Source: an uncultured Caulobacterales bacterium (GTDB lineage: Bacteria; Pseudomonadota; Alphaproteobacteria; Caulobacterales; Maricaulaceae). Taken from it: a stretch of 64,000 nucleotides of DNA. The position numbers were made by a program, and so were the translations under genes. The notes beneath the pieces were generated by a model that saw only the letters and a list, made by a program, of their open reading frames with translations, was not told where the DNA came from and did not search any database. Positions within the stretch are counted from its first letter, which is position 1. Every line of letters begins with the position of its first letter. Below are positions 1-13,707 of the stretch, piece after piece. The stretch spans positions 62,001 to 126,000 of the forward strand of contig CALLIK010000002.1 in assembly GCA_938009235.1 (NCBI GenBank). Reading direction: 5' to 3'.

Positions 1-2
1 AA

Positions 3-572
3 GGTGGTCAAGCCCCGCTTGTCTTCAGGCGGTTCTATCAGAAATCGCTCAACATTGTGTTTAGCGACTTCTCTCCCGAAGGGTATACAGAATTTTGGGA
101 AAGTCGCGAAAACGAAATTGTTGACGCAGCAAAGAGAGAGATCGCGTCAATTGAAATAAGCCTGAAGTCGGCAACTAAAAGTGCGCTCGAGAGTAAGTTC
201 AATGAAAATTGGGAAATTGCCGGTATACCCATCAAGGTCCGCAAATCTGCGAATGAACTAAAGATCGAAAAGGAGAACCTTTCGGGCCAGGTAGTCGACT
301 TAATGGATTGTTTAAATTTAATACACTATCGCGATATCTTTCTTCAAAATTGGGAAGATCTCTTCAAGTCTGTTTACATTTTCCCCAAGTCAGAAAACAA
401 ATCCAAAAAGTTACAAACACAATGGTTGGATAGACTAAGCAGAATCCGAAACGACCTCACTCACCAGCACATGATATTGCCTGAAGATGCCAAATTTTTA
501 AGCGCTGTCACAGATTGGGTGCTTGAAGATAACACGGAGAAACTCGAGCTCGGCGGCCATCTTTCAGGCTAA
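3..572 (+). CDS. HEPN-domain protein, C-terminal part (5' end outside window)
   Basis: The reading frame is open from the first bases of the window, so this is the 3' end of a longer gene; the GTG at 57 is only an internal codon. Near the C-terminus it carries the segment RIRNDLTHQH, which fits the RNxxxH signature of HEPN ribonuclease folds (Arg and His six residues apart). It is preceded by a helical region with the aromatic stretch NWEDLF, as in Swt1-type HEPN modules at the ends of larger helicase- or DGQHR-type proteins. The N-terminal domain that would define the system is missing. It lies 186 bp upstream of the TPR-CHAT gene on the same strand, in AT-rich accessory DNA. HEPN assignment rests on the motif and predicted helicity only. 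Confidence 0.6.
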   Translation, partial: GGQAPLVFRRFYQKSLNIVFSDFSPEGYTEFWESRENEIVDAAKREIASIEISLKSATKSALESKFNENWEIAGIPIKVRKSANELKIEKENLSGQVVDLMDCLNLIHYRDIFLQNWEDLFKSVYIFPKSENKSKKLQTQWLDRLSRIRNDLTHQHMILPEDAKFLSAVTDWVLEDNTEKLELGGHLSG

Positions 573-758: not shown

Positions 759-3700
759 ATGGAAAAATGGGCTTCGCTACTGCAAGATATTGTCACGTCG
801 ATCTCACTTGATGAAGCTGATTTAGGGCCTGTCATAAACGCGTGTGATGACCCAAAGGTAGAAATTTATCTGAAGGGTTTACCACACAAAGGCATTCAAC
901 CGCCCATAAAGGATAACTCGATCATTGCCGAGCTCAACGCGTCGGGGCAAACAGCAGAAGCAACCATATTAAACCTTACAATACACCGTTCAATCTTGGA
1001 GAATACCAACAATCCGGGTGCACTCTCAGCAAGTGAAAAAATCCAAATTTCAGATCTATTTGATGAGCTAATAGCATCCTGCCGAAATCACCCAGATGAA
1101 CTTTCACCAAGCGCATATTTCATCTTACGCTTGAATGCAGGCTTCTATGGTTCGGAAGGAGATTTTGAAGCTGAAAAAAATGCCAACGATGAAGCGCTGA
1201 AAATTTTACGTCACCAAACACTCTCTAATAAACACGATCAACGCGAAAAGTTGGCGGATTTTCTTTACAACCTTGGAATTCTTTATAGCCAAAGAGAGAA
1301 CTTTTCTGCATCCCTAAACGCTTACAAAGAAGCGCGGGACATCGGCATCCTTCTAATTCAGAACGGATCCGCCTCTTCCAAACATAGTCTGGCAATAACA
1401 TTAAACAATCTGGGTAATTTACAAGGACGAACAGGCGACTCAGAAGCGGCCCTTATTTCACTTTCCAGCGCAATAGCTATATACCGTGAATTGATAGAAG
1501 AGTGTTTTCATTCATGTGAAGAGGATCTTGCTCTCTCTCTCATTTCAATCGGAAAAATACACTTCACCAAAAAGGACTTTGAACAAGCTAAGCTAGATTT
1601 AAAAGAAGCGTGCCATCTGTATGAGACACTAAGCGAAATCCATCCAACTCAATATCAAACCGGCTTGGCATTGGCTTTAAGGAACCTTGGCGGCACTTAC
1701 GGCCAAAACGAGGAGCTTGCGCTTGCTCTTGAATGCTTTGAAAAAGCCTGCGTGATCGATAGAAATTTGGCGAGTTCCGGAGATCCGGATGCATGCAATG
1801 GATTAGCATCGACGCTGAACAATTTGGCAATAATATATTTTAAGCAGGGGCATTTTCAATTGTGCCAAGACGCGTTCCAAGAGTGCTGGCAGGTTCGCAG
1901 CCGACTTTCGGTCGAAAACCCCTTAACATTCGGAGGAGATCTCGCCTCCCTCCTAAAAAACCTTGGAATGGTCCACAGGAAGCTTGGCAATCATACTGCG
2001 GCCCTAAAATCTCAAAACGAAGCCTGCAATACGTTTCGAATTTTGTCCGAAAAAGCGCCAGAAGTATATAGCGCTAGTTTTGCAGATGCCCTCAACGGCT
2101 TAGGTGTACAACACAGAGCACTCAGAAACTTCTCCTGTGCCCTGATAGCGCATAAAGAGGCTCTCCCCATCCGGAATAAACTGGCTCAAAGAGAGCCTGA
2201 TATTCACAGAGGTACTCTGGCCACTACCTATAATAATATTGGGGTTTTATATTATGAAACCCGACAGTTTACTCAAGCTCGTATCGCGTATGAACACGCT
2301 CACGATATTCGCAAACAACTCGTTTTAGAGCGCCCAAAGGTCTATTCTTCTGACCTTGCGATGACCCTAAATAATTTGGGGATTTTATACAGAGAGCTAG
2401 AGTTGTATGAGCAAGCCTTAGATGTTCTGCAGAAGGCACTTTCTATCTACCGTATGCTGTCAGCCTCCAGCGGGAAGCTCTTTACAGCTAAGGTTGCAGA
2501 TAGCTTAAGCAACCTTAGCAACCTATACGAAAGAATGGGAAATTTTGAGGTCGCAATCAAAACCGGGCATGAAGCTTGTGATATCCGAGAAGCGCTGGTT
2601 ACCGCGGGCTTTAGAATTTACGAACGGCCTCTCGCCCAAGCAATGTCTAATCTCGGGAAAAGCTACCGAGCGAGCGGAGATATACTCAAGGCTCTCGATT
2701 TCCACCAAAAGGCATACGACGTTTTAGTTGATCTTGATTCAGATAATTTTAAAGGCCATCAAAGTGAACTTTCTATCGCACTTAATAACCTGGGGGTCCA
2801 AAACAATGACCTTGGGAACTTTATAGCGGCCAATGAAACTTTCACAGCCGCAGTAGAACATGCCGAAAATGAAATATTTGATTCTGACTTTCTCTCATTG
2901 GTGAAAGGCAAGATCCACTCAGCTTATAAACATTTACTCACTACGGTAAGCAACGAGCCAGTTCGCGCTTTTGCGTTGGCCGCAACTATGCGTGAGAGTG
3001 GTGTTCGTTCAAGCTCAATCGATAGATCAGACCTCACCTCCACCCAAAAAGTTTTGGCCCAACGGAGTCATCGCTATAGCACTCCTAACATTATACTCGT
3101 CCCGACATCCTCTGGAAAAAACAACAGCCTAACCCTCGGCCTAATCACGCCCGAAAGGTGTCAATGGTGGGTATTGGAATGTAAGGAGTGGTCAAACCTA
3201 TTAGTTCATAACCCGGAACATGTTGACCATAGGGCTCGACGGGAATTAGCTAGAGAAATATGGCTGACACTGCCAGAGGAATTGAAGTTTACAATTATTG
3301 ATACAATTAAACAGGCTGGAGATATATATATAAGCGGCGATAGCGAGTGGTCAGCATTCCCATGGGAATTACTACGCTATGATGAAGGCAACGATGAATA
3401 TCTCGGGTTACAGCAAGCCTTACCGAGAATAGGCTCAATTCTAGCATCAGGCTTAGAAAAGCACCTTAATGTTAAGCGTCTCGGTTCGGGAAAAAAGAAC
3501 ATTGCAGTCATAGCTCCTCATACAACCGGCAAAGTCCCACTTTATGGGGTGCTGGATGAGGTTAAGGCCATAAGAAAGAGCGTCCAAAAGTTAGGATACT
3601 CTCTAAATATATGCGAAATTGGTGACGAGGCTAACGACACTCTGATGCTTCAAGCCATAAGGTCGCAACCGGACATACTATATTTCAGTGGCCATGGAAA

Positions 3701-4169
3701 AATAGTTTCAAAAGAAGAAATGCTGGTTTTACATACGGATCGTAGAGTCACGCCACCACCACAAGCTCGCAAGACCTATTTCGGCGCGTACCATATTGAT
3801 CAGCTAGCCGAAGAAGCTGAAAACACCTGTTTAATGCCGAACTCTCCCTTGGTTGTTCTGAACAGTTGTTTTACAGGTGGAATAAGAACTCATGGTGGCG
3901 ACAGAGAAGACTTAATTCAAGCATTTCTACGAAATGGCTCCGGCGCAATTATTGCTACACCCTTTCCTATTTTTGATGACATTGGAATGGCGTTCGGCGA
4001 AGCACTATTTACTGCTCAGGCTACACCCTATACTTCTATAGGGAACTTGGTTGTAGCTTCCCGGAGAGAACTTGCTACTAAGCACTCTCACGATGTAAAC
4101 AGTCTCAAATGGGGATCTTGGGCAATGATCCATATCCACGGGACATCCAATGCTGCGTCACCTATTTAG
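759..4169 (+). CDS. TPR-CHAT caspase-like protease
   Basis: This 1136-residue protein has a long array of kinesin-light-chain-type TPR repeats (roughly residues 90-720, each with an ALxxxLNNLGxxY-like helix A) followed by a C-terminal CHAT domain (about 740-1130). The expected caspase-like dyad is present: His979 in YFSGHGK and Cys1037 in VVLNSCFTGG. CHAT proteases with TPRs include the Csx29 effector of type III-E CRISPR and separase-like peptidases; the TPR part normally senses a partner and unleashes the protease. No CRISPR locus is nearby. The gene precedes a small hydrophobic protein by 26 bp, so the two probably form one operon. It is AT-rich relative to the core genes, consistent with transfer. 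The family call is firm; the defence role is inferred. Confidence 0.9.
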   Translation: MEKWASLLQDIVTSISLDEADLGPVINACDDPKVEIYLKGLPHKGIQPPIKDNSIIAELNASGQTAEATILNLTIHRSILENTNNPGALSASEKIQISDLFDELIASCRNHPDELSPSAYFILRLNAGFYGSEGDFEAEKNANDEALKILRHQTLSNKHDQREKLADFLYNLGILYSQRENFSASLNAYKEARDIGILLIQNGSASSKHSLAITLNNLGNLQGRTGDSEAALISLSSAIAIYRELIEECFHSCEEDLALSLISIGKIHFTKKDFEQAKLDLKEACHLYETLSEIHPTQYQTGLALALRNLGGTYGQNEELALALECFEKACVIDRNLASSGDPDACNGLASTLNNLAIIYFKQGHFQLCQDAFQECWQVRSRLSVENPLTFGGDLASLLKNLGMVHRKLGNHTAALKSQNEACNTFRILSEKAPEVYSASFADALNGLGVQHRALRNFSCALIAHKEALPIRNKLAQREPDIHRGTLATTYNNIGVLYYETRQFTQARIAYEHAHDIRKQLVLERPKVYSSDLAMTLNNLGILYRELELYEQALDVLQKALSIYRMLSASSGKLFTAKVADSLSNLSNLYERMGNFEVAIKTGHEACDIREALVTAGFRIYERPLAQAMSNLGKSYRASGDILKALDFHQKAYDVLVDLDSDNFKGHQSELSIALNNLGVQNNDLGNFIAANETFTAAVEHAENEIFDSDFLSLVKGKIHSAYKHLLTTVSNEPVRAFALAATMRESGVRSSSIDRSDLTSTQKVLAQRSHRYSTPNIILVPTSSGKNNSLTLGLITPERCQWWVLECKEWSNLLVHNPEHVDHRARRELAREIWLTLPEELKFTIIDTIKQAGDIYISGDSEWSAFPWELLRYDEGNDEYLGLQQALPRIGSILASGLEKHLNVKRLGSGKKNIAVIAPHTTGKVPLYGVLDEVKAIRKSVQKLGYSLNICEIGDEANDTLMLQAIRSQPDILYFSGHGKIVSKEEMLVLHTDRRVTPPPQARKTYFGAYHIDQLAEEAENTCLMPNSPLVVLNSCFTGGIRTHGGDREDLIQAFLRNGSGAIIATPFPIFDDIGMAFGEALFTAQATPYTSIGNLVVASRRELATKHSHDVNSLKWGSWAMIHIHGTSNAASPI

Positions 4170-4195
4170 CGCTTCAAAACTGGAGATAAGGTTCT

Positions 4196-4561
4196 ATGAG
4201 AGAAGAATTAGTGGAGGCTTACAGAGTAGCTCAGGAGTTTGCTGACGAAGCCCAAGAAATACTAGGCGTCAGCGAAATTTCAGAACGTTTATCCCAAATG
4301 AAAGCAGATGCTATAAGTCTCGATAGTATTAGTTCACGTGGCCTCGGGGTTGGAGACGTGGCATCGATCGCAGGGCTCTTAGTCAGTTTAATTGCCTTCA
4401 CTCAGCAAATTCACGCAGGCCACACTCTAAAGGGCGCTTCCCGTAAAGAGGTTTATCGTGAACTTTCACTGCTAGTTTTTGAAGCAGGGGATCTCCAACC
4501 GCTACAAAAAGAACGCCTACTCAATCGACTCATAGACAGGGTTCTTCCCGATACGAAATAG
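4196..4561 (+). CDS. Small single-TM protein downstream of the TPR-CHAT protease
   Basis: A 121-residue protein not assigned to a named family. Residues 1-40 are charged and probably helical. Residues 53-69 form one hydrophobic segment (VASIAGLLVSLIAF) that could span a membrane. The C-terminal 45 residues are again charged and helical, ending in a Lys. A Shine-Dalgarno-like GGAGATAAGG lies just before the ATG, and the gene starts 26 bp after the protease stop. Small, one-TM companions are known beside effector proteases in bacterial conflict systems (for example the EACC-type constant components), but I cannot show homology. It could be the protease substrate, a membrane effector or an adaptor; the sequence does not decide between them. 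Confidence 0.75.
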   Translation: MREELVEAYRVAQEFADEAQEILGVSEISERLSQMKADAISLDSISSRGLGVGDVASIAGLLVSLIAFTQQIHAGHTLKGASRKEVYRELSLLVFEAGDLQPLQKERLLNRLIDRVLPDTK

Positions 4562-4570
4562 TACATGACT

Positions 4571-4592
4571 GCGGGGAGTGACGAATCCCCGC
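4571..4592 (+). terminator. Hairpin after the TPR-CHAT operon
   Basis: GCGGGGA (4571-4577) pairs perfectly with TCCCCGC (4586-4592) around an 8-nt loop, ten bases after the stop of the small TM gene. There is no run of T after the stem, so it is terminator-like rather than a classical intrinsic terminator. The rest of 4593-4742 shows no gene. Confidence 0.45.
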
Positions 4593-4742
4593 GTAGCCCA
4601 CTCTAGAGCATAAATGTGCTCATGGATGAGTTTCTAGAGGGACCCCAGAGTGTGACACAAACCCTACTACCCGTGTGATACAAAATGAAATTTGACAAGC
4701 GTAAGCAATTGTTTTATTTGTATTTTTCCACTCGGCGCTGTG

Positions 4743-4765
4743 CCGTGTGGGGGCACCATTTTCCT
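4743..4765 (+). repeat. Left attachment repeat (attL) of the integrative element
   Basis: The 23-bp sequence starting CCGTGTGGGGGCACC and ending TTTTCCT occurs again, without mismatch and in the same orientation, at 13685-13707. It lies 127 bp upstream of the integrase start, the usual position of the integrase-proximal att site. It is not part of a recognisable tRNA. Confidence 0.8.
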
Positions 4766-4892
4766 AACATAGCAACTTGCGTAAGCCACTGAAAAGTCTC
4801 GGAATATCTCTCTTTCCTGTACTTTCCACACGGTAACTCGCGCGATTTGCCTCACTTCTTGCCTTACAAAAGGCTGCACAGGAGATGGCAGG

Positions 4893-6269
4893 ATGAAAGC
4901 GATTAGACGGCCCGACCAATACTTACGTTTGCGCGGTGATATATGGCATTATGTGCGGCGCGTGCCCAAGGCCGTCAGCCACCTAGACGACCGAACACTG
5001 ATATACCGCTCCCTTGATACAGATAGCCGCAAGGTTGCCCGCCAGCGGCGAGACATATGCGCCGATGCGGACGAGCAGCGCTGGCATGAGATTGTACCCA
5101 GCCGTTTCCGTTCAACGCCAAGAGAGGTTAGCTTCCACGACGTAAGCCATCACGCCCGTTCTATGGGGTTCAATTATGAGCAGATGGAAAGCTTGATTTC
5201 ACGCGATACTGTCACGGATTTATTGAACCGCTTACAAGCCTTGGGGCCATTACAAGAAGCGCCACAGCCAAAAGAAGAACATAATGCCGACGCCTTGCTA
5301 GGTGTTGCCAAGACGCCTTCTGCGACCATTAGCGAAGCGATGGAGCTTTATCTATCCGAGATCGTCGCAGACGAACTCTCAAGTAAATCACCGGAACAAG
5401 TGAACAACTTTTCTAAGATTAAACGCCGCGCCGTGGCGAACTTCGTCAACATAAACGGCGATATAGATATGCGAGATATTACCCGCGAGCATGCCCACGC
5501 CGTGCGTAAATTCTGGCACGAGCGTATCCACCCGAAGGACGGCAGCAAGCCTATGAGCGGGAGTAGTGGCAACAAAGACTTGGGAAGTTTGCGTAAATTC
5601 TACCGCCGATACTTCGAGCATATCGGCGAGGAAGAACGCGAAAACCCATTCCGCAACATGCGATTCAAAGACAAAATTCTCACAAAGGTCATGCCGTTTA
5701 AGGACGGTTGGGTTAGGTCGCGCATACTCGCGCCAGATGTTTTTGAGGGCCTCAATCGGCAAGGCGCACTCCTTTGCATGGCCTTGATTGAGACAGGATG
5801 CAGACCAAGCGAGCTAGCGAATATCAGGCCAGAGAATATACGGCTGGACGCCGAGGTTTCACATATTCGCATCCGTCCAACGAAAGACAGAGAGCTTAAA
5901 TCGGGTGCATCCGTTCGAGATATTCCGCTTGTCGGCGTGGCGCTGGAGGCCATGCGGCAGGCCCCGAACGGTTTTCCGCACTATAGGGATAGGAGCTACT
6001 TATTGAGCGCGTCGCTTACAAAAGCGTTCAAAGCGAGAGCATTATTCCCAACAAAACAGCATCGCATCTATAGCTTTAGGCACAGCTTTGAGAACCGTAT
6101 GTTAGAGGCTGGATTGGACTTTGGATTGCGCTGCACATTGATGGGGCATCGCAACCCGCGACCTGAATATGGTGACGGAGGCTCGCTTGCTTATCGCCGA
6201 GAGGAGCTTTTGAAAATAGCCCATCCTGTTAGTGACGCGCTATTGCAGAGCTATCCATTTAAGGTCTAA
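4893..6269 (+). CDS. Tyrosine recombinase / site-specific integrase
   Basis: This 458-residue protein begins with the short YLRLRGDIWHYVRRVPK segment typical of DUF6538-type integrases, followed by a SAM-like core-binding region (about 150-270) and a catalytic domain. Catalytic features are visible: Arg in ETGCRPSEL, the second box YSFRHSFENR (Tyr replaces the first His, as is common in this group), His in LMGHRNP, and the nucleophile Tyr probably in PEYGDGG. It sits just inside the left repeat and reads inward, so it most likely excises and integrates the 4743-13707 element. The small gene 6281-6514 converges on its 3' end. Confidence 0.92.
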   Translation: MKAIRRPDQYLRLRGDIWHYVRRVPKAVSHLDDRTLIYRSLDTDSRKVARQRRDICADADEQRWHEIVPSRFRSTPREVSFHDVSHHARSMGFNYEQMESLISRDTVTDLLNRLQALGPLQEAPQPKEEHNADALLGVAKTPSATISEAMELYLSEIVADELSSKSPEQVNNFSKIKRRAVANFVNINGDIDMRDITREHAHAVRKFWHERIHPKDGSKPMSGSSGNKDLGSLRKFYRRYFEHIGEEERENPFRNMRFKDKILTKVMPFKDGWVRSRILAPDVFEGLNRQGALLCMALIETGCRPSELANIRPENIRLDAEVSHIRIRPTKDRELKSGASVRDIPLVGVALEAMRQAPNGFPHYRDRSYLLSASLTKAFKARALFPTKQHRIYSFRHSFENRMLEAGLDFGLRCTLMGHRNPRPEYGDGGSLAYRREELLKIAHPVSDALLQSYPFKV

Positions 6270-6280
6270 ATCTTATCGGC

Positions 6281-6514
6281 TTATGCAGCTTGGTCAGCAT
6301 CAGATAGGAGCGAGGCAAGCAAAGCTGCGCGGTCATCCTGCGCATCATATTCTTGTTTAAGGCGTTCCAAAACTGGCCAATATTTGGGGCCATATCGCTG
6401 AACAAGCTGCGCCGCGATAGTCATCCCGCACTTTATGTCAGCGCGAGACGGCGTTTCTATGGAGGCGTTTGATGCTATGTTTTGGGCTTCATTCACGAAG
6501 GGATTATAACCCAT
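6281..6514 (-). CDS. Small hypothetical protein of the mobile element
   Basis: A 77-residue acidic, helical protein starting MGYNPFVNEAQN and ending in an Ala-rich, Asp-containing tail. It has no signal peptide, membrane segment or recognised motif. It faces the integrase gene with 11 bp between the stops. Codon use resembles the integrase. It may be a small regulatory or accessory protein of the element, but no function can be assigned from sequence. Confidence 0.55.
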   Translation of the reverse strand: MGYNPFVNEAQNIASNASIETPSRADIKCGMTIAAQLVQRYGPKYWPVLERLKQEYDAQDDRAALLASLLSDADQAA

Positions 6515-6748
6515 CCAGCGCGATATTTACGAAGAAAAGAGTTGGAAAATTACAAGGTTACGGGTCAAAATAGCCCATAAGACGATTCCTCCAACCTACC
6601 CTAACTCGACAAAATTTCGAGATGATGTTGCTAAATTTTAGAACGACCTTCACCGAAAACAGATTCGAAGATAGGGCTATATTACCAACCGCTCTACTGT
6701 TAGGATTTACGTTTAACGAGAACAATTTCTTTGGAGTGATTTTTTGAT

Positions 6749-7060
6749 ATGTCAAACAACGTTCAGACTGACTTGAGAGTCGATGAAGCAAATTTCCAAT
6801 TTGTTTCTCAAAGGCTACCTAGCGCGGACAACGGCAACGGTAGGACAAAACAGTACTTTAGATTTAGGGATGAAAGTAATTTTCCTATATTTATTATCAG
6901 TGCCTCAAAGGACTATATTGGAAGTGAGCTTAATACAGATTTACTAAGAAAATTTATCTCCTCTGTAAGTAACGAAGAAGGACTTTACCAAAACATCACG
7001 GACGGATGGGTTAAGTCAGGACGGAATGCAGACGTAAAAAAACATGAATATGTTTTTTAG
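6749..7060 (+). CDS. Hypothetical protein, 103 residues
   Basis: This AT-rich gene encodes a soluble 103-residue protein starting MSNNVQTDLRVDEANF, with a predicted beta-rich middle (KQYFRFRDESNFPIFIISASKDY) and a helical C-terminus. TTTGGAGTG about 11 bp upstream can serve as a ribosome binding site. No family was recognised. A shorter ORF follows at 7070-7153 with its own AGGGG site, so the two may be an operon. The low GC compared with the relaxase downstream suggests a separately acquired cargo gene. Confidence 0.5.
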   Translation: MSNNVQTDLRVDEANFQFVSQRLPSADNGNGRTKQYFRFRDESNFPIFIISASKDYIGSELNTDLLRKFISSVSNEEGLYQNITDGWVKSGRNADVKKHEYVF

Positions 7061-7069
7061 GGGTTTAGA

Positions 7070-7153
7070 ATGACAGTCTACTATGACTCCGCCAAAGATA
7101 TTAAGGAGATCAAACAGAGCGCTTTAACCAATGTATCGAAAATAGAAAATTGA
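7070..7153 (+). CDS. Short ORF of 27 codons, possibly a gene remnant
   Basis: ATG at 7070 lies five bases after AGGGG and nine bases after the stop of the preceding gene, and the frame runs to TGA at 7151-7153. The predicted peptide starts MTVYYDSAKDIKEI. It could be a true micro-ORF or the beginning of a longer gene whose remainder was lost when the GC-rich region after 7160 joined here. Spacing and Shine-Dalgarno support translation; nothing supports a function. Confidence 0.3.
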   Translation: MTVYYDSAKDIKEIKQSALTNVSKIEN

Positions 7154-7207
7154 ATACTTGTTGCACCATGCCTTTTGAAAGCATCTTTTCCCCGCTTTGC
7201 GGCGAGT

Positions 7208-7256
7208 CCAACGCGCCTGCCTCCGCTCGTGTGGGCGGCTCCAGCAGGCGCGTCGG
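7208..7256. other. Candidate origin of transfer (oriT)
   Basis: Arms at 7208-7220 and 7244-7256 (CCAACGCGCCTGC against GCAGGCGCGTCGG) form a 13-bp inverted repeat with one mismatch and a 23-nt loop. It lies about 290 bp upstream of the relaxase gene, the classical position for oriT. No nick site could be identified, so the call rests on structure and position. Confidence 0.45.
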
Positions 7257-7359
7257 ACGGCTCTGTTTTGAGAAAGCGTAATTAATTAGATAGGTTTGGA
7301 GCTTGCGGAGGGATTAGGAAAGAAAGTAGCTTTAGCAAGATAAAGCGAACCGCCCTTTT

Positions 7360-7451
7360 GGGGGCACTTCGACGCTAAAGCTCTGTTTTTGCTACGCGAG
7401 TTGGGGTGTTACTTTTTCGGTAACTCATGCGCGGTGCCTCCAAAGTGCCCC
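7360..7451. repeat. Inverted GGGGCACTT motifs upstream of the relaxase
   Basis: GGGGCACTT at 7361-7369 is matched by AAGTGCCCC at 7443-7451, a perfect 9-bp inverted pair 73 nt apart. The GGGGGCAC core also occurs within both 23-bp attachment repeats of the element, so these could be binding sites for the element's recombinase or relaxosome. The remainder of 7154-7544 has no coding capacity I can support. Confidence 0.35.
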
Positions 7452-7544
7452 TATCCCGCTAAGACCTAGAAACTCCCCGTTCCCTACAATTTCCAATCGG
7501 CTTCCTTCGAGACAAAGTCGCCTGTTTTGTTCGATTATGGGCAA

Positions 7545-9803
7545 ATGTCAGATGAAGATGATTTCCGCTTAAAAGCCAAAGCCCGCAAGACCAGCAGCCG
7601 AGGCGCTGAGGTGAATGTCCCTGCAAACTATAAGGGGTTTTTCCAAGAAGCCCGTATTGCGCTCGTGAGAGGCAAGGCCGTTTCAGGAAGGCGCACTCTA
7701 ACGGTTCCCTCCAAACCCCGCACAGGGTGCTTCAACGCGCGAGGCAGAGGCCGAGCAGCGTTAGAGCGCGGCATTGGGCCAAAACAAGGCTGGCGCGTTC
7801 ACAAGGCGACGGGAGACCGCTACCGAGCCCGCCGCGCGATTGTGAAAGTCCGTGTGGTGAAACTACGCAATGCCAAGTCATCCGTGTCGCGAGGCCACTT
7901 GGCTTACCTCCAGCGCGAAGGCGCAGGTGTGGAGCGAGCCGAGGGGCTTGATGGCTCGGCGGAATTGACGCCAACGCGCGGCCAGCTCTACGGCCCAGAG
8001 GACGGCGTTGAGATTGACGGGCGAGACTTTGTTGCTCGCTCGCAGGAGAGCTTTGACGGACGCGGCGACCCGCATCAGTTTCGGATTATGATCTCGCCCG
8101 AAGACGGGGCGGAACTTGCCCGCGTGAATGGCGACGGCACGCCGAACCTCAAAGACACAACGCGAGCGCTCATGGCGCAGATGGAAGAGGACTTAGGCAC
8201 ACGGCTGGATTGGGTGGCCGTTGACCATTTCGACACGGCCCATCCGCACACGCATATCATCGCGCGCGGCGTGACCCATGATGGCAAAGGGTTGAACATT
8301 GCAGGGGAGTATATCTCGCGCGGTATTCGTGGACGGCTGGAGGAAGAACTCACACGAGAGCTGGGCTGGAAGTCCGAGCTTGCAATTCAGCAGGAGATGA
8401 AGCGCGAAGTCGGCGCGATGCGCGTCACGTCAGCGGATAGACATATCGCGAACGGGTTGGACAAACTTAACAACACAATTGACCTACGTGCAGGGTCAGC
8501 GGCGAGCACCTTCCCCGCCAACTCATCCATGAACAGGCACATCCTAATCGGACGGATGAAACATCTTGAGAAAATGGGCTTGGCGCAGTCTAAGTATGAC
8601 GGCCTCTGGCGGGTCGACAAGGACGCCTTCAAAACCCTTGGACAGATTGAGCAGCGCGAGCAGCTTACGAAAGATATTCACGGCGCTATGGAGCGAGCAA
8701 ATATCAAACGGCCTATCCGTCTGAATATTGGCCGCACAGACTATGAAGGCAAGCTCACCAATAAGCGCGTCATTGGCCGCGTGATTGCCAAGACACTTGG
8801 CCGTGATGAGGGTATGGACGCGGACGCCAAAGGCGGCGGAAAAGTGCGGTTCATTATCGACGGTACTGACGGCTATGTCAGCACGATAGAGACAGGGATG
8901 GACACGCGAGCGGGCGAAGCCGCCAAGGTCGGCTCTATCATCGAAGTCTCCCCGCCTAACTTGCGAACTGTAGATCGTAACATCCAAGCCATTGCAACAG
9001 GCAAAGACTATCACGGCAAGCCACACAATGGACTCGTCGGGACTTACGCTATCGCCACGAGCGGGCCAGAGGATTGGACAGACGGAAGCGGGAGCAGAGG
9101 CGCAGCTCATATGCGGGCATATAGGTTACGCCTAGCGGCACTGGTAAAGGCTGGCGTTGTGCAAGTCGCGAGCAAAGATAAGGACGGCGACCCTTCCGAG
9201 TGGCGCGTGCCAAAGAACTTTGAGGAAAAGGCTATCGCGCTAGATATGAAGCAAGGCCGTGCGTCAGGCGTGAAGCTACTTTCGGTTCAGGACTTAGAGG
9301 CACAACTTGCGAGTCCCGGTGCGACGTGGCTTGATCGCTCGCAGGTCAGTTGGGGCAGAGGTGGGATGAAGGACGTTAGCTCGACTATGAGTGCTTTTGC
9401 GAAAGAACTCGACACAACTTTCGAGCAGCGCCGCACATGGCTCGTTAAGCGCGGCTACGCAGAGCTTCGCCAAGACGCGCAGAAGACATCTATCATCTAC
9501 AAGCGCGGCTATTTGAAGGCGCTAGAGACGGAAGGGTTCAATGCCGCGACCCAAAAGCTGGAAGGCATGACAGGCAAGGCACACATCGCGGCGCAGTCAG
9601 GGCGATTGATTGAAGGCACCGTTGCTCAAAAGCTTGAACTTCCACAAGGCCCGCATGCCCTCATAGAAACGCAACGCGCCTTCTACCTCGTCCCTTGGGA
9701 GAGCACTCACGCGCAGAAATGGGGCAAGCGCATCAAAGGCCGCGTGCTGAGTGGTGGCGGCATTGATTGGGATACAGGACGGTCAAGAGGTATAGGGCGT
9801 TAA
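7545..9803 (+). CDS. rlxS: RlxS-type relaxase / mobilization nuclease (DUF3363)
   Basis: The protein nicks and pilots DNA at oriT during mobilization. I prefer ATG 7545 (MSDEDDFRLK) over the upstream TTG at 7527, because this family typically begins with such an acidic stretch; that gives 752 residues. The VirD2/MobA-type relaxase domain covers about residues 70-290 and contains the three-His motif HFDTAHPHTHII; the preceding QFRIMISPED strand is also family-typical. The remaining 450 residues correspond to the DUF3363 region. No secretion genes are linked, so it is a mobilization rather than self-transfer function. A fragment of a related relaxase survives at 13944-14031. Confidence 0.9.
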   Translation: MSDEDDFRLKAKARKTSSRGAEVNVPANYKGFFQEARIALVRGKAVSGRRTLTVPSKPRTGCFNARGRGRAALERGIGPKQGWRVHKATGDRYRARRAIVKVRVVKLRNAKSSVSRGHLAYLQREGAGVERAEGLDGSAELTPTRGQLYGPEDGVEIDGRDFVARSQESFDGRGDPHQFRIMISPEDGAELARVNGDGTPNLKDTTRALMAQMEEDLGTRLDWVAVDHFDTAHPHTHIIARGVTHDGKGLNIAGEYISRGIRGRLEEELTRELGWKSELAIQQEMKREVGAMRVTSADRHIANGLDKLNNTIDLRAGSAASTFPANSSMNRHILIGRMKHLEKMGLAQSKYDGLWRVDKDAFKTLGQIEQREQLTKDIHGAMERANIKRPIRLNIGRTDYEGKLTNKRVIGRVIAKTLGRDEGMDADAKGGGKVRFIIDGTDGYVSTIETGMDTRAGEAAKVGSIIEVSPPNLRTVDRNIQAIATGKDYHGKPHNGLVGTYAIATSGPEDWTDGSGSRGAAHMRAYRLRLAALVKAGVVQVASKDKDGDPSEWRVPKNFEEKAIALDMKQGRASGVKLLSVQDLEAQLASPGATWLDRSQVSWGRGGMKDVSSTMSAFAKELDTTFEQRRTWLVKRGYAELRQDAQKTSIIYKRGYLKALETEGFNAATQKLEGMTGKAHIAAQSGRLIEGTVAQKLELPQGPHALIETQRAFYLVPWESTHAQKWGKRIKGRVLSGGGIDWDTGRSRGIGR

Positions 9804-9893
9804 TATACACCCTTGGATGGAATTACAGGAAAAATACCTAGTTGTGTTTCCTCGAAAATTATGTGAATTTATAATAATGAAAAATAAAAAAAT

Positions 9894-11048
9894 ATGACGA
9901 AACCGCTGCTGGTTGATTTATTTTCGGGGTGTGGGGGCTTCGGATTGGGGGGAGAGCTAGCTGGCTTTCACTCAGCGATTGCGGTCGACGTTGATCCAAC
10001 GCTTCAATCTTCATATAAGCTCAATTTTCCTAAAACCAAAGTCATGGTTGGCGACATCGCAGCGATGAATGCCGCTGGTTGGAAGCTACTCTTGAGCGGA
10101 CTTGAAATTGACGGAGTAATTGGCGGACCTCCTTGCCAAGGCTACAGCCGTCAGGGAGTGGCCGATCCAAATGATGCTCGGAGAACGCTACTTCACGAAT
10201 TTTTTAAAAGCGTAAATGCTATAAATCCCAAATTCTTTATTATGGAAAACGTCGAAGGGCTTTTAGATAAAAAAAATCGCCCTGAACTTACATCGGCCAT
10301 CTCTGAATTAAGTTCAATTTATACTGTTTTAGAACCAATCGTTCTAGATGCTTCTAATTACGGACTGCCGACTAAACGAAAACGAGTGTTCGTTATCGGT
10401 TATAATTCAAGCTACGTAGACAAAGTTCAACCCTGTGATTTTATGAATTTTGAAAGCACAGTGAATGTAAGAGATGCTATAAACGATGTTCCCGAGCCAA
10501 TTGCTCAAGGCACTAAAAATTTAGACTTTGCTTGGGCAAAGTACGATAACCGAAAAAAGTGTTCTGAATATGCTAACTTGATGAAAGCATTGCCTCAGGC
10601 TGGCTTGGGGTCTCAGTTAGCGTTAGAACGACTTAAAGCTGGATATGTTTCGGGAAATTATCACACGAAACATACAGATGCCGTTTCCGAGCGCTATGCG
10701 TCTATCGAACCAGGTAAGACAGATCAGGTTAGTCGCTCAAAACGTTTAAGTTGGACAGGGTTTTGCCCTACTCTCAGGGCTGGAACAGGGTCAGATAAGG
10801 GAAGCTATCAGGCAGTCCGACCACTCCACCCTAAATTCGGAAGGGTGATCACCGTACGAGAAGCAGCTCGATTACAGAGTTTTCCTGATTGGTTTTTGTT
10901 TCATCATACTAAGTGGCATAGCTTTCGAATGATAGGAAACAGTGTGCCGCCTTTGATTTCTAAAATGATCTTAAACGTCCTCAGAGAGAAATCTAATAAT
11001 AGTGTGGAAACAGATTTGACAGAAACATATTCTGCTATGGAGGTATAG
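9894..11048 (+). CDS. DNA cytosine-5 methyltransferase
   Basis: This 384-residue enzyme has the ordered motifs of C5 methyltransferases: motif I DLFSGCGGFG (8-17), motif IV GGPPCQGYS with catalytic Cys81, motif VI ENVEG (118-122), motif VIII PTKRKRVFVIG, and the C-terminal motifs IX-X (VREAARLQSFPDWF and MIGNSVPP). It would transfer a methyl group from SAM to cytosine in a target that cannot be read from sequence. The next gene starts two bases after its stop, so it heads a three-gene operon with a GHKL ATPase and an unknown protein, suggesting it protects host DNA from that pair. The 90-bp upstream spacer is very AT-rich and contains TATAAT at 9870-9875. Confidence 0.95.
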   Translation: MTKPLLVDLFSGCGGFGLGGELAGFHSAIAVDVDPTLQSSYKLNFPKTKVMVGDIAAMNAAGWKLLLSGLEIDGVIGGPPCQGYSRQGVADPNDARRTLLHEFFKSVNAINPKFFIMENVEGLLDKKNRPELTSAISELSSIYTVLEPIVLDASNYGLPTKRKRVFVIGYNSSYVDKVQPCDFMNFESTVNVRDAINDVPEPIAQGTKNLDFAWAKYDNRKKCSEYANLMKALPQAGLGSQLALERLKAGYVSGNYHTKHTDAVSERYASIEPGKTDQVSRSKRLSWTGFCPTLRAGTGSDKGSYQAVRPLHPKFGRVITVREAARLQSFPDWFLFHHTKWHSFRMIGNSVPPLISKMILNVLREKSNNSVETDLTETYSAMEV

Positions 11049-11050
11049 CA

Positions 11051-12529
11051 ATGGCTGATAACTCAGTGCCATCGCCAGTGGCTAAAACTTCTCCATCTAA
11101 ATCATTTTTCGTCGATATGTTGACTCGTGATATCGAACTTAAAGATGCTCTACTTGATTTATTGGATAATTGTATGGACGGTGTAGTAAGGCAACGTTCT
11201 TCACAGTCTAACCCGTTCACTGATAAGCCGTTCGAAGGCTATCACGCTCATATTTCCATCGATAAAGATATTTTTTTAATTGAGGATAATTGCGGAGGCA
11301 TACCTCTCGAAGTCGCCCGTAATAGGGCCTTTGCAATAGGCAGGTCTTCGGCTTTCAAGAGCACTGAAGCTGACGGAGCTACAGTTGGAATGTACGGAAT
11401 CGGAATGAAAAGGGCGATCTTCAAGATGGGGCGTAACGCCACGGTAGAATCTTGGAATGACGAACATTTTTTAGTTACGATCGATGATAATTGGCTTAGT
11501 GATGAAGAATGGAAAGACCTTCCCATTGAGACTGAAGAAACGGAAGAGTTTCATCTTGCTAATGAAGGCACACGAATAGAGGTTACAAAGCTTAGACAAG
11601 AGGTTTCATCGAAATTTGGTGACGATCTATTTATTGAAGAGTTCCGTAAGGAAGTGTCTCGTCACTATGCTTTGATAGTGGAAAAGGGTTTCGAAGTTTC
11701 GATTGGCAGACCAAACGAAGTACAGGCCAACGAAGACGTTACCCATGTTAGAGCAGAAGATTTTTTATTACTCGACTCAGGTGATGATGAGGATGTGGTA
11801 ATTAAGCCCATTTTTTACGAGGGGACAGTCGAAGGGGTTAAATTCGAAATTTTTGCGGGATTAACAGCGCCTGCATTAGACAAGGAGCAGATTGACAAAG
11901 GTATAGCTGACACCAAGAGTAGCTATAAGGTCAATAAATCTGGATGGACGGTCGCATGTAATGACCGAATTGTAGTCTGGCGTGACAGGACAATCGTAAC
12001 AGGTTGGGGAACAGCTGGCGTTCCTGCCTATCATAATCAATTCTCGCCAGTTGCTGGTCTAGTTCTTCTTTATGCTGATGATCCCAACCTTCTTCCCCTA
12101 ACCACAACTAAACGCGGCATTGATCTTTCTTCAAAAGCTTATCAAATGATTCTCGATCTAATGAGGACAGCCACGAAAGAACTCACTTCATTTACAAATA
12201 GATATAAGAATGCAGACTCAAGAGGACCGATTTTTGAGAAGGCGCGCCTTCAGCCTTTAAAATCGCTTCAAAGGGAACGTGCTGCTGCGGTTGATGCTGG
12301 AAAGATTAAAACCTTACGAAAGGCTGGCGTTCAAGGAACGGTCGAAAGGCTCGTGAAATATCCTGAAATGAAAAAGACTTCTACTAAGAAGCGCGTAAGT
12401 TATCTTGCTGAAAAGGCCGAGATTAAGGAGGTAGAACGTTTCCTTGGTATGGAGGACGCTGACATCAAAGACATAGGGCGAGAAACTTTTGATCGATCAT
12501 TGAGAGACGCTAGGAGCTTTGACGAGTGA
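11051..12529 (+). CDS. GHKL ATPase (MutL/MORC-like) of an R-M-like cassette
   Basis: The N-terminal Bergerat fold is clear: N-box LLDLLDNCMD (around Asn40), motif II EDNCGG (78-83) and motif III GMYGIGMK (113-120). A central S5-like region and a charged helical C-terminus follow, 492 residues in all. Prokaryotic MutL/MORC-type GHKL ATPases beside DNA methyltransferases in restriction-modification neighbourhoods were described by Iyer, Abhiman and Aravind, which fits here. It is translationally coupled to both neighbours: two bases after the methyltransferase stop and a GTGA overlap with the next gene. It probably works as an ATP-driven clamp recognising or acting on unmodified DNA. It is not MutL itself, since no endonuclease or mismatch-repair C-terminal motif is seen. 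Confidence 0.85.
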   Translation: MADNSVPSPVAKTSPSKSFFVDMLTRDIELKDALLDLLDNCMDGVVRQRSSQSNPFTDKPFEGYHAHISIDKDIFLIEDNCGGIPLEVARNRAFAIGRSSAFKSTEADGATVGMYGIGMKRAIFKMGRNATVESWNDEHFLVTIDDNWLSDEEWKDLPIETEETEEFHLANEGTRIEVTKLRQEVSSKFGDDLFIEEFRKEVSRHYALIVEKGFEVSIGRPNEVQANEDVTHVRAEDFLLLDSGDDEDVVIKPIFYEGTVEGVKFEIFAGLTAPALDKEQIDKGIADTKSSYKVNKSGWTVACNDRIVVWRDRTIVTGWGTAGVPAYHNQFSPVAGLVLLYADDPNLLPLTTTKRGIDLSSKAYQMILDLMRTATKELTSFTNRYKNADSRGPIFEKARLQPLKSLQRERAAAVDAGKIKTLRKAGVQGTVERLVKYPEMKKTSTKKRVSYLAEKAEIKEVERFLGMEDADIKDIGRETFDRSLRDARSFDE

Positions 12530-13572
12530 GCGGCGGATCAGATGTAGATTACGAATTAAGGCCAGCAAAAGGTGTAGATCGTAATATCTTTCTTGACCTT
12601 CTGTCTCGTTATCAGCGCTGGGTCCCCTTAGACGGGGCTGTTTATATTTCCATGGGCGGGTACCCTATGTCAGACCATAGGATGATCTATCGGCGTTTCG
12701 GCTTAGAACATCTAATTTCAATCGACGGAGAAAAACATGTCGTGGACCGTCAACGTTTTAACAAGCCAACAGAAAAAACAAAATGCCTACACCTTCGATC
12801 AAATATATTGATTGAGAACTTCGACGAAATTCTCAGTGAAAATGAAATTCCAGATACCGCTACGCGAGTTGTTTGGATGGACTTCACAGAACCTAATAAA
12901 CTATCTGATCAGCTTTCACAGTTTGAACAACTATTAGAGACGCTAGGCGAAGGCGATATTATTAGAATTACACTCAACGCCAATGAATCTTCGCTCAAGA
13001 TGGCCAAGCCTGATGGGAGCAAACCAAAACCTATCGAGGTCGCAGCTATGGACCGCGAAGAACAACGAGAAGCTAGATTTAAAAGACTAGAAAACGACCT
13101 AGGAAGCTACCTTCCTAGTTCCGCAACGGCCCAAGATTTATCAAATGATAAGCTCCCGATTCTTTTAGGAAAACTGTTAGAGAAAGCTGCTGGAAGTGCT
13201 TTTCCCTCTGGTAGCAGTCAACATGCCTTTTTCCCATTATCATCGTTAGTTTATAGAGATGGTCAGCAAATGATTACTGTCACAGGAGCCATAATAGACA
13301 GGCATCATTTCGATCAAGTGGAAGTGATCATGGCCTTAGAAAACTGGCCGTTTTCGGTAGAAAAAATATCAGATTTCAAACGACTAAGTGTTTCAACGTT
13401 AACTCTGAAAGAACGCTTGCTGATGGAAAGGTTAGTTCTTGCTGATGGGGAAGTTGATATAGTCGAGCGCTTGGGTTTCTCTAAATTTGGGTCCACGGAT
13501 GCCAAGACGTATTTTGAGGACTTCAAAGAATTTTCGAGGTTTTACCCCAACCATGCAGTTGTTGAGTATTGA
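12526..13572 (+). CDS. Unknown third protein of the methyltransferase-ATPase cassette
   Basis: The GTG start overlaps the TGA of the ATPase gene by four bases, implying translational coupling and co-stoichiometry. The 348-residue protein has a strand-glycine-loop (AVYISMGGYPMSDHRMIYRRFG, residues 39-60) followed by an acidic strand end LISIDGE, and later VVWMDFTEP (115-123). This order resembles a Rossmann-fold SAM-dependent methyltransferase, though the canonical GxGxG is absent. The C-terminal 150 residues are helical. No nuclease motif was recognised with confidence. In this context it is a candidate effector or specificity subunit. The function is unknown. Confidence 0.75.
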   Translation: MSGGSDVDYELRPAKGVDRNIFLDLLSRYQRWVPLDGAVYISMGGYPMSDHRMIYRRFGLEHLISIDGEKHVVDRQRFNKPTEKTKCLHLRSNILIENFDEILSENEIPDTATRVVWMDFTEPNKLSDQLSQFEQLLETLGEGDIIRITLNANESSLKMAKPDGSKPKPIEVAAMDREEQREARFKRLENDLGSYLPSSATAQDLSNDKLPILLGKLLEKAAGSAFPSGSSQHAFFPLSSLVYRDGQQMITVTGAIIDRHHFDQVEVIMALENWPFSVEKISDFKRLSVSTLTLKERLLMERLVLADGEVDIVERLGFSKFGSTDAKTYFEDFKEFSRFYPNHAVVEY

Positions 13573-13590
13573 TAACTTAATAGTCGAGGC

Positions 13591-13624
13591 TTGCCTCACA
13601 ACTACCCTAACTCTTTGCCTCACA
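13591..13624 (+). repeat. TTGCCTCACA direct repeats near the right end of the element
   Basis: TTGCCTCACA occurs at 13591-13600 and 13615-13624, exactly 24 bp apart, and TTGCCTCAC recurs near the left end at 4847-4855. ACTTGCG is also shared by both ends (4775-4781 and 13629-13635). Repeats clustered just inside the two att sites fit arm-type binding sites for the tyrosine recombinase; this is inference. Confidence 0.4.
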
Positions 13625-13684
13625 AACGACTTGCGAAAACTGATAAATCATTGTAATCATTAGGTTCTCAGGACGATGGGCACC

Positions 13685-13707
13685 CCGTGTGGGGGCACCA
13701 TTTTCCT
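13685..13707 (+). repeat. Right attachment repeat (attR) of the integrative element
   Basis: This is an exact copy of the 23 bp at 4743-4765, in direct orientation, 112 bp after the stop of the last cargo gene. The sequence diverges immediately on both sides, as expected at a recombination junction. Confidence 0.8.

Follow-up and report, generated by a model that had tools for sequence, protein, structure and literature searches.

A candidate two-gene module of a TPR-CHAT protease and a small, probably membrane-embedded protein in an uncultured Caulobacterales bacterium

A gene for a TPR-CHAT protease lies near the left end of the DNA stretch analyzed here (referred to as the window; 64,000 nucleotides, bases 62001-126000 of contig C2 in the 2.79-Mb genome of an uncultured Caulobacterales bacterium). 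Its stop codon is followed after 26 bp, on the same strand, by the start of a gene encoding a small protein with a single hydrophobic helix (P0002), and we discuss the two genes as a candidate module in which a protease acts together with a membrane partner. The features of the pair are as follows (window coordinates, strand, description).

759..4169, +, TPR-CHAT protease gene, 1136 residues (open reading frame [ORF], Pfam matches, coding score z 11.8)
1128..2918, +, array of 13 TPRs at 46-residue spacing, residues 124-720 (TPR starts; Pfam TPR_12 in 9 stretches, E 2.7e-48)
3246..4112, +, CHAT (caspase-fold) domain, residues 830-1118 (PF12770, E 3.7e-17)
3693..3695, +, codon of the catalytic His979 (SGHG), invariant in a 9-row alignment
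3867..3869, +, codon of the catalytic Cys1037 (NSC), invariant in the same alignment
4182..4191, +, Shine-Dalgarno-like GGAGATAAGG before the small gene, read from the sequence
4196..4561, +, P0002 gene, 121 residues, without a known family (ORF, coding score)
4349..4414, +, hydrophobic, probably transmembrane (TM) helix, residues 52-73 (KD19 2.04; helical in a low-confidence model)
4571..4592, +, GC-rich hairpin after the small gene, a possible operon end (fold of 4555-4625)

The TPR-CHAT protein is probably an active protease, judging from its intact catalytic pair. Its CHAT domain scored 63.1 bits against PF12770, for which the curated cut-off is 24, and is the only match to this family in the genome. 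His979 (in a GHG motif) and Cys1037 (in an (S/A)C motif) are invariant across nine CHAT domains, namely that of the window and eight others from the same class, to which the former is only 19-25% identical. The 13 TPRs start between residues 124 and 675, with a spacing of 45 residues once and of 46 residues eleven times, as placed with a motif list derived from this same sequence; while this spacing is nearly constant, repeats 2 to 13 share an average mutual identity of 26%. The Pfam scan found no NTPase domain in the protein, and its AlphaFold2 single-sequence model had a pLDDT of 37.

The 121-residue ORF behaves as a coding sequence, with a log-odds per codon of 0.102 in its own frame (each of the other five frames scored between -0.31 and -0.51) and a coding score z of 4.1 against shuffles. 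P0002 has one hydrophobic peak (KD19 of 2.04 from residue 50), and its net charge is -6 on the N-terminal side of the hydrophobic helix and +2 on the C-terminal side. The AlphaFold2 single-sequence model, which is of low confidence (pLDDT 58), consists of helices at residues 2-23, 26-40, 44-48, 52-73, 83-96, and 102-116. There was no match of note to P0002 in Pfam, NCBIfam, PADLOC, PHROGs, or PDB sequences; the best Pfam line was ATG22 (E 0.29), and the best NCBIfam line (E 0.017) was far under the cut-off. An earlier reading of this DNA from its letters alone (the sequence-only reading) had described a CHAT protease with intact His979 and Cys1037 and a long TPR region, followed 26 bp downstream by a protein with one hydrophobic segment that belonged to no recognized family; each of these points is borne out by the alignment, the repeat count, the coding scores, and the family scans given above.

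The arrangement of the two genes is consistent with an operon. No promoter-like match was found in the 26-bp intergenic gap, and the region behind the small gene folds into the hairpin listed above (-23.4 kcal/mol for 4555-4625, z -2.7), which lacks the T-run that a standard terminator has. Downstream of the small gene, a terminator-like match is first met at 4740-4756, inside the region of a 23-bp repeat described below.

Close relatives were found for neither gene. No homologue of P0002 was detected in 137 genomes of the family, 398 genomes of the phylum, plasmids, phages, or the genome_contigs and viral pattern scans, the last two of which require an exact eight-residue match and thus detect close relatives only. 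The search of the phylum did return 22 other genomes at E values of 0.0034-0.098, mostly as partial matches within larger frames, and these weak matches were treated as chance, the surrounding DNA having been viewed for the best of them (L055). For the C-terminal 392 residues of the CHAT protein, no close relative was found in 385 genomes of the class, 299 genomes of the order, phages, or the genome_contigs patterns, and the whole protein had no match in the viral pattern scan. Three weak plasmid matches were obtained (best E 0.04), among which H1 is a 5.9-kb TPR gene with no small gene annotated behind it on the same strand in the stretch viewed. PF12770 itself is common, being present in 80 of 385 genomes of the class and 23 of 136 genomes of the family (own genome included).

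A small hydrophobic neighbor is not a general feature of CHAT genes. We scored as a downstream partner any same-strand ORF of 60-200 residues with a KD19 of at least 1.6 whose start lay -30 to +120 bp from the stop codon of the CHAT gene. Out of 157 other CHAT loci, given with short fragments and weak rows omitted, 152 were analyzable (L052, in which the CHAT match is in pieces, was not counted, and L157 is a repeat of L049), and such an ORF was found at five (L004, L016, L025, L036, and L091). Those at L004, L016, and L025 presumably represent known unrelated proteins, which they resemble, and that at L091 has two hydrophobic segments. Among the control genes, i.e., 71 further ORFs with 200 residues or more in contig positions 1-126000, four had such a downstream ORF. 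One alternative is that the two genes have no functional link, P0002 being an orphan small ORF or an unrelated membrane protein that came by chance to stand behind a CHAT gene at a variable island end. These base rates favor it, as does the lack of close relatives of either gene, and the ends of mobile islands gather unrelated cargo. We regard it as unlikely. Against it, the genes lie on one strand with a gap of 26 bp, the small gene has a Shine-Dalgarno-like site and a good coding score, and a hairpin follows the second gene.

The remaining locus, L036, led to a different kind of pair, which spans 2526-6808. Here, a 1296-residue open frame with CHAT, AAA, and TPR matches overlaps by ATGA with the gene of a 132-residue protein with one hydrophobic segment. 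Searching 82 genomes of that order for this small protein returned six at E <1e-3 and three more at 0.0045-0.0073. At L202-L205, the same ATGA overlap lies behind a large ORF with a P-loop and VFLSACRTAE, and LTGHG is present in three of the four; these assignments were made by motif rather than by Pfam, and the source record of L203 is annotated as CHAT. Thus, a CHAT-ATPase-TPR protein paired with a single-TM protein of 121-132 residues was present at five of the five assessable loci of this Azospirillum group (L036 and L202-L205), a sixth (L206) lying too near a contig end to be assessed. The partners belong to no Pfam family. From these loci, it is credible in general that CHAT proteins of this class can have dedicated single-TM neighbors. 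We considered P0002 as a relative of these partners and dropped the idea on the hhalign result given below, and the profile of the partner (alignment A2) gave nothing at E ≤0.01 in G000. As a separate observation, at L035 (2917-8001) a CHAT-nSTAND1-TPR protein of 1225 residues overlaps by 4 bp with a protein of at least 470 residues, whose gene runs on past the stretch retrieved and which from its start we take to be patatin-like, so that this CHAT protein is possibly paired with a phospholipase.

Three further features of the window concern the surroundings of the pair.

1..572, +, C-terminal HEPN part of a 765-residue DndB-like/HEPN protein (PF14072, PF18731), a neighbor outside the proposed module
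4743..4765, +, 23-bp direct repeat at the junction of a ~47-kb island (left) and a 9-kb element (right), found by repeat search
13685..13707, +, second copy of the 23-bp repeat in the window (exact), at the right end of the 9-kb element

The gene of the DndB-like/HEPN protein (L034:10275-12572) starts 1.7 kb left of the window and ends at window position 572; its product matches PF14072 (DndB-like) at E 4.4e-16 and, weakly at the C-terminus, PF18731 (HEPN). It stands beside a D12 adenine methyltransferase gene and the gene of a 444-residue protein without a Pfam match, and a McrB/McrC-like pair lies farther left as well, a name that we gave because a DUF2357-PDDEXK_7 protein follows an AAA protein there. 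The third copy of the repeat, which differs at the last base only, is at C2:19620, and the genome holds three copies in total at up to three mismatches. A tRNA-Thr gene (C2:19560-19635) runs with its 3' end into the copy at C2:19620, behind which come a DUF6538 integrase, then type IV secretion system genes (including the PF02534 coupling protein, the others being named by us from their sequences) and a relaxase. Two elements (window 4743-13707 and the one at C2:19560-19642) thereby appear to stand in tandem at tRNA-Thr, marked off by repeats of 22-23 bp that overlap the tRNA end; both carry a DUF6538 integrase and a DUF3363 relaxase of their own. The simplest reading is a ~47-kb conjugative-type island (C2:19620 to window 4743) followed by a ~9-kb mobilizable element, with the TPR-CHAT pair as the last cargo of the island, at its right end.

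The ~9-kb element (4743-13707) carries an integrase, a relaxase, and the genes of a C5 methyltransferase, a HATPase, and a Methyltransf_35 protein. The last three lie in a row at 9894-13572, with a 2-bp gap and a 4-bp overlap, and probably form an operon of restriction- or defence-like cargo. We dropped this element as the carrier of the TPR-CHAT pair, since the direct repeat speaks against it. In the genus, 13 tRNA loci from 17 other genomes were examined, and an integrase match was found behind the tRNA in L213, L214, L218, and L221; L216 also has an integrase match, the tRNA end being unlocated there and likewise in L219. No empty insertion site came to light. In L220, the region behind tRNA-Thr matches the window at ~40.5 kb; since the frame at that place resembles, as we judge it, an insertion-sequence transposase, we did not take this match to mark an island border. 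With regard to what the sequence-only reading had said of these surroundings, the defence setting stands, with McrB/C-like, D12 methyltransferase, and DndB-HEPN neighbors. A HEPN neighbor is present as well, while the separate small gene proposed for it (3-572) is the tail of the 765-residue protein. An integrative element does adjoin the pair at 4743, while the pair itself belongs to the other, ~47-kb island.

Taken together, the locus is best explained as an operon that encodes a sensor-protease with a partner embedded in the membrane and that forms defence cargo at the island end; to this explanation, we assign a probability of about 0.38. In this explanation, both genes would be transcribed as one operon at the end of the integrative, conjugative-type island, and the TPR array would bind a cue of infection or of foreign DNA while holding the CHAT protease inactive. 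Sensing would switch the protease on, and by way of the small protein the protease would then act at the membrane. The most likely step here would be that the small protein is cut or released, and the freed hydrophobic helix may damage the membrane or stop growth. We counted for this explanation the catalytic pair, the 26-bp layout, the Shine-Dalgarno-like site, the coding scores, the hairpin, the promoter-free gap, the defence-type neighbors, and the independent pairs of the Azospirillum group. That the TPR-CHAT and small proteins form one functional module is probable, while the narrower proposal that P0002 is an effector cleaved or released by the protease is only tentative.

Several results weigh against this explanation. 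The lack of a P0002 homologue in the searches means that no conserved linkage of the two genes was seen. Adjacency alone is weak evidence, since a small hydrophobic ORF is no more frequent downstream of other CHAT genes (5/152) than of ordinary ORFs (4/71). The partner of the Azospirillum group has no detectable kinship with P0002 (hhalign probability 0.5%, 20 columns). The model of P0002 is of low confidence, and the charge-free stretch of the protein covers 18 residues (55-72), the last four being T, Q, Q, and I, for which reason insertion into a membrane is itself a prediction. Promoter-like matches in the region (10, compared with 7.2 in shuffles, sd 2.8) are within chance. The GC content at third codon positions of the two genes (0.41 and 0.38) says little because that of other cargo nearby spans 0.37-0.47.

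To our knowledge, CHAT proteases with known substrates are few. The locus would offer a compact test case: a TPR-CHAT protease, probably active, stands with one small candidate substrate and no CRISPR machinery nearby. It also places a CHAT module among other defence-type genes, as cargo of a conjugative-type island. A bolder claim, which we consider rather improbable, is that P0002 would represent a class of CHAT-activated membrane effectors not known before, all-helical and belonging to neither gasdermins nor EACC1, in a mobile, CRISPR-independent two-gene system of abortive infection. If it is true, the locus would mean, with the unrelated pair of the Azospirillum group, that CHAT proteases gained single-TM partners more than once, the partners being unrelated to each other, and the independent partners in that group suggest a recurring theme.

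Among known systems, Craspase of type III-E CRISPR, composed of Cas7-11, the TPR-CHAT protein Csx29, and Csx30, shares with the locus the combination of TPRs with a CHAT protease, and its proteolysis is activated by a sensor (PMC10028731). It differs in that we found neither CRISPR-like repeats (exact 20-mers, three in a row) nor an ORF of more than 1136 residues, i.e., of the size of Cas7-11, in contig positions 1-126000, in agreement with the earlier statement that no CRISPR array or gRAMP is nearby. In addition, the partner here is a small membrane-type protein, whereas that of Craspase is a sigma-factor inhibitor. The 9-row CHAT profile, which includes the domain of the window, matched the solved CHAT protein 8rot at E 2.5e-10 and chains that we take to be Csx29 at about 0.6.

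Fungal gasdermin clusters carry CHAT-TPR Q2-like proteases, and in gasdermin systems, those of bacteria being treated as well, a protease gene adjoins the gene of a membrane-active protein, as described in PMC10989679. P0002 differs from gasdermins in being a 121-residue protein, helical in its low-confidence model, without a family match in Pfam, NCBIfam, or PADLOC, whose coverage of gasdermin models was unchecked. Gasdermins are about twice its size. Borvo, a CHAT system, is tabled among phage defence systems (PMC10952713). The likeness is that of a CHAT protease in phage defence. Borvo is a single-gene system. The pair of the Azospirillum group resembles ours in that a small single-TM protein comes after a CHAT protein, and differs in its ATPase domain, N-terminal CHAT domain, and ATGA overlap. 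Among the papers listed by searches of open-licence PubMed Central, judged by title and abstract beginning, none described a CHAT and small single-TM pair of this kind.

BELL, as presented in PMC7889193, is encoded beside an NLR and folds as a small bundle of alpha-helices, one of which is a hydrophobic TM helix. A further mark of BELL effectors is an amyloid (BASS) motif that they share with the neighboring protein. The six helices of the P0002 model, one of them hydrophobic, resemble it at low confidence, and the small protein could accordingly be a BELL/HeLo-like death domain, pore-forming or membrane-targeting, activated by contact with the TPR-CHAT protein and without proteolysis. This is the least probable of the alternatives in our view. 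Against it, the TPR-CHAT protein has no NTPase domain in the Pfam scan, and P0002 has no sequence match to a known family. A CHAT protease stands here in place of the NLR.

The EACC1-caspase system consists of a single-TM protein and a caspase-superfamily peptidase, and the former was proposed to be a membrane sensor rather than a substrate (Kaur et al., 2020; PMC7159879). By this precedent, P0002 would stand upstream in the signal, as an anchor or a sensor in the membrane by which the CHAT protease is recruited and triggered, and the triggered protease would cut itself or other proteins. Both systems have a small adjacent single-TM protein with short extensions beside a caspase-superfamily peptidase, with a proposed membrane-proximal action (PMC7159879), and P0002 shares the gross layout of extension, TM helix, and extension, with the opposite net charges around the helix. 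However, the gene order is reversed, EACC1 being the 5' gene (PMC7159879) and P0002 the 3' gene, and the extensions of EACC1 are alpha+beta, whereas P0002 is all-helical in its low-confidence model. The peptidase here is a TPR-CHAT protein with a C-terminal catalytic domain. PF19953 (EACC1) had no match in the genome at E ≤10 in a search run without a positive control, nor did it appear in the Pfam scan of P0002, and we dropped P0002 as a member of EACC1 on this result. An EACC1-like role is doubtful in our estimate, though less so than the chance or BELL/HeLo-like alternatives, and EACC1-caspase may be the nearest precedent in layout. The locus is best read as a candidate two-gene module of a protease and a membrane partner, whose logic would be like that of EACC1-caspase, BELL, or gasdermin systems while it is assigned to none of them.

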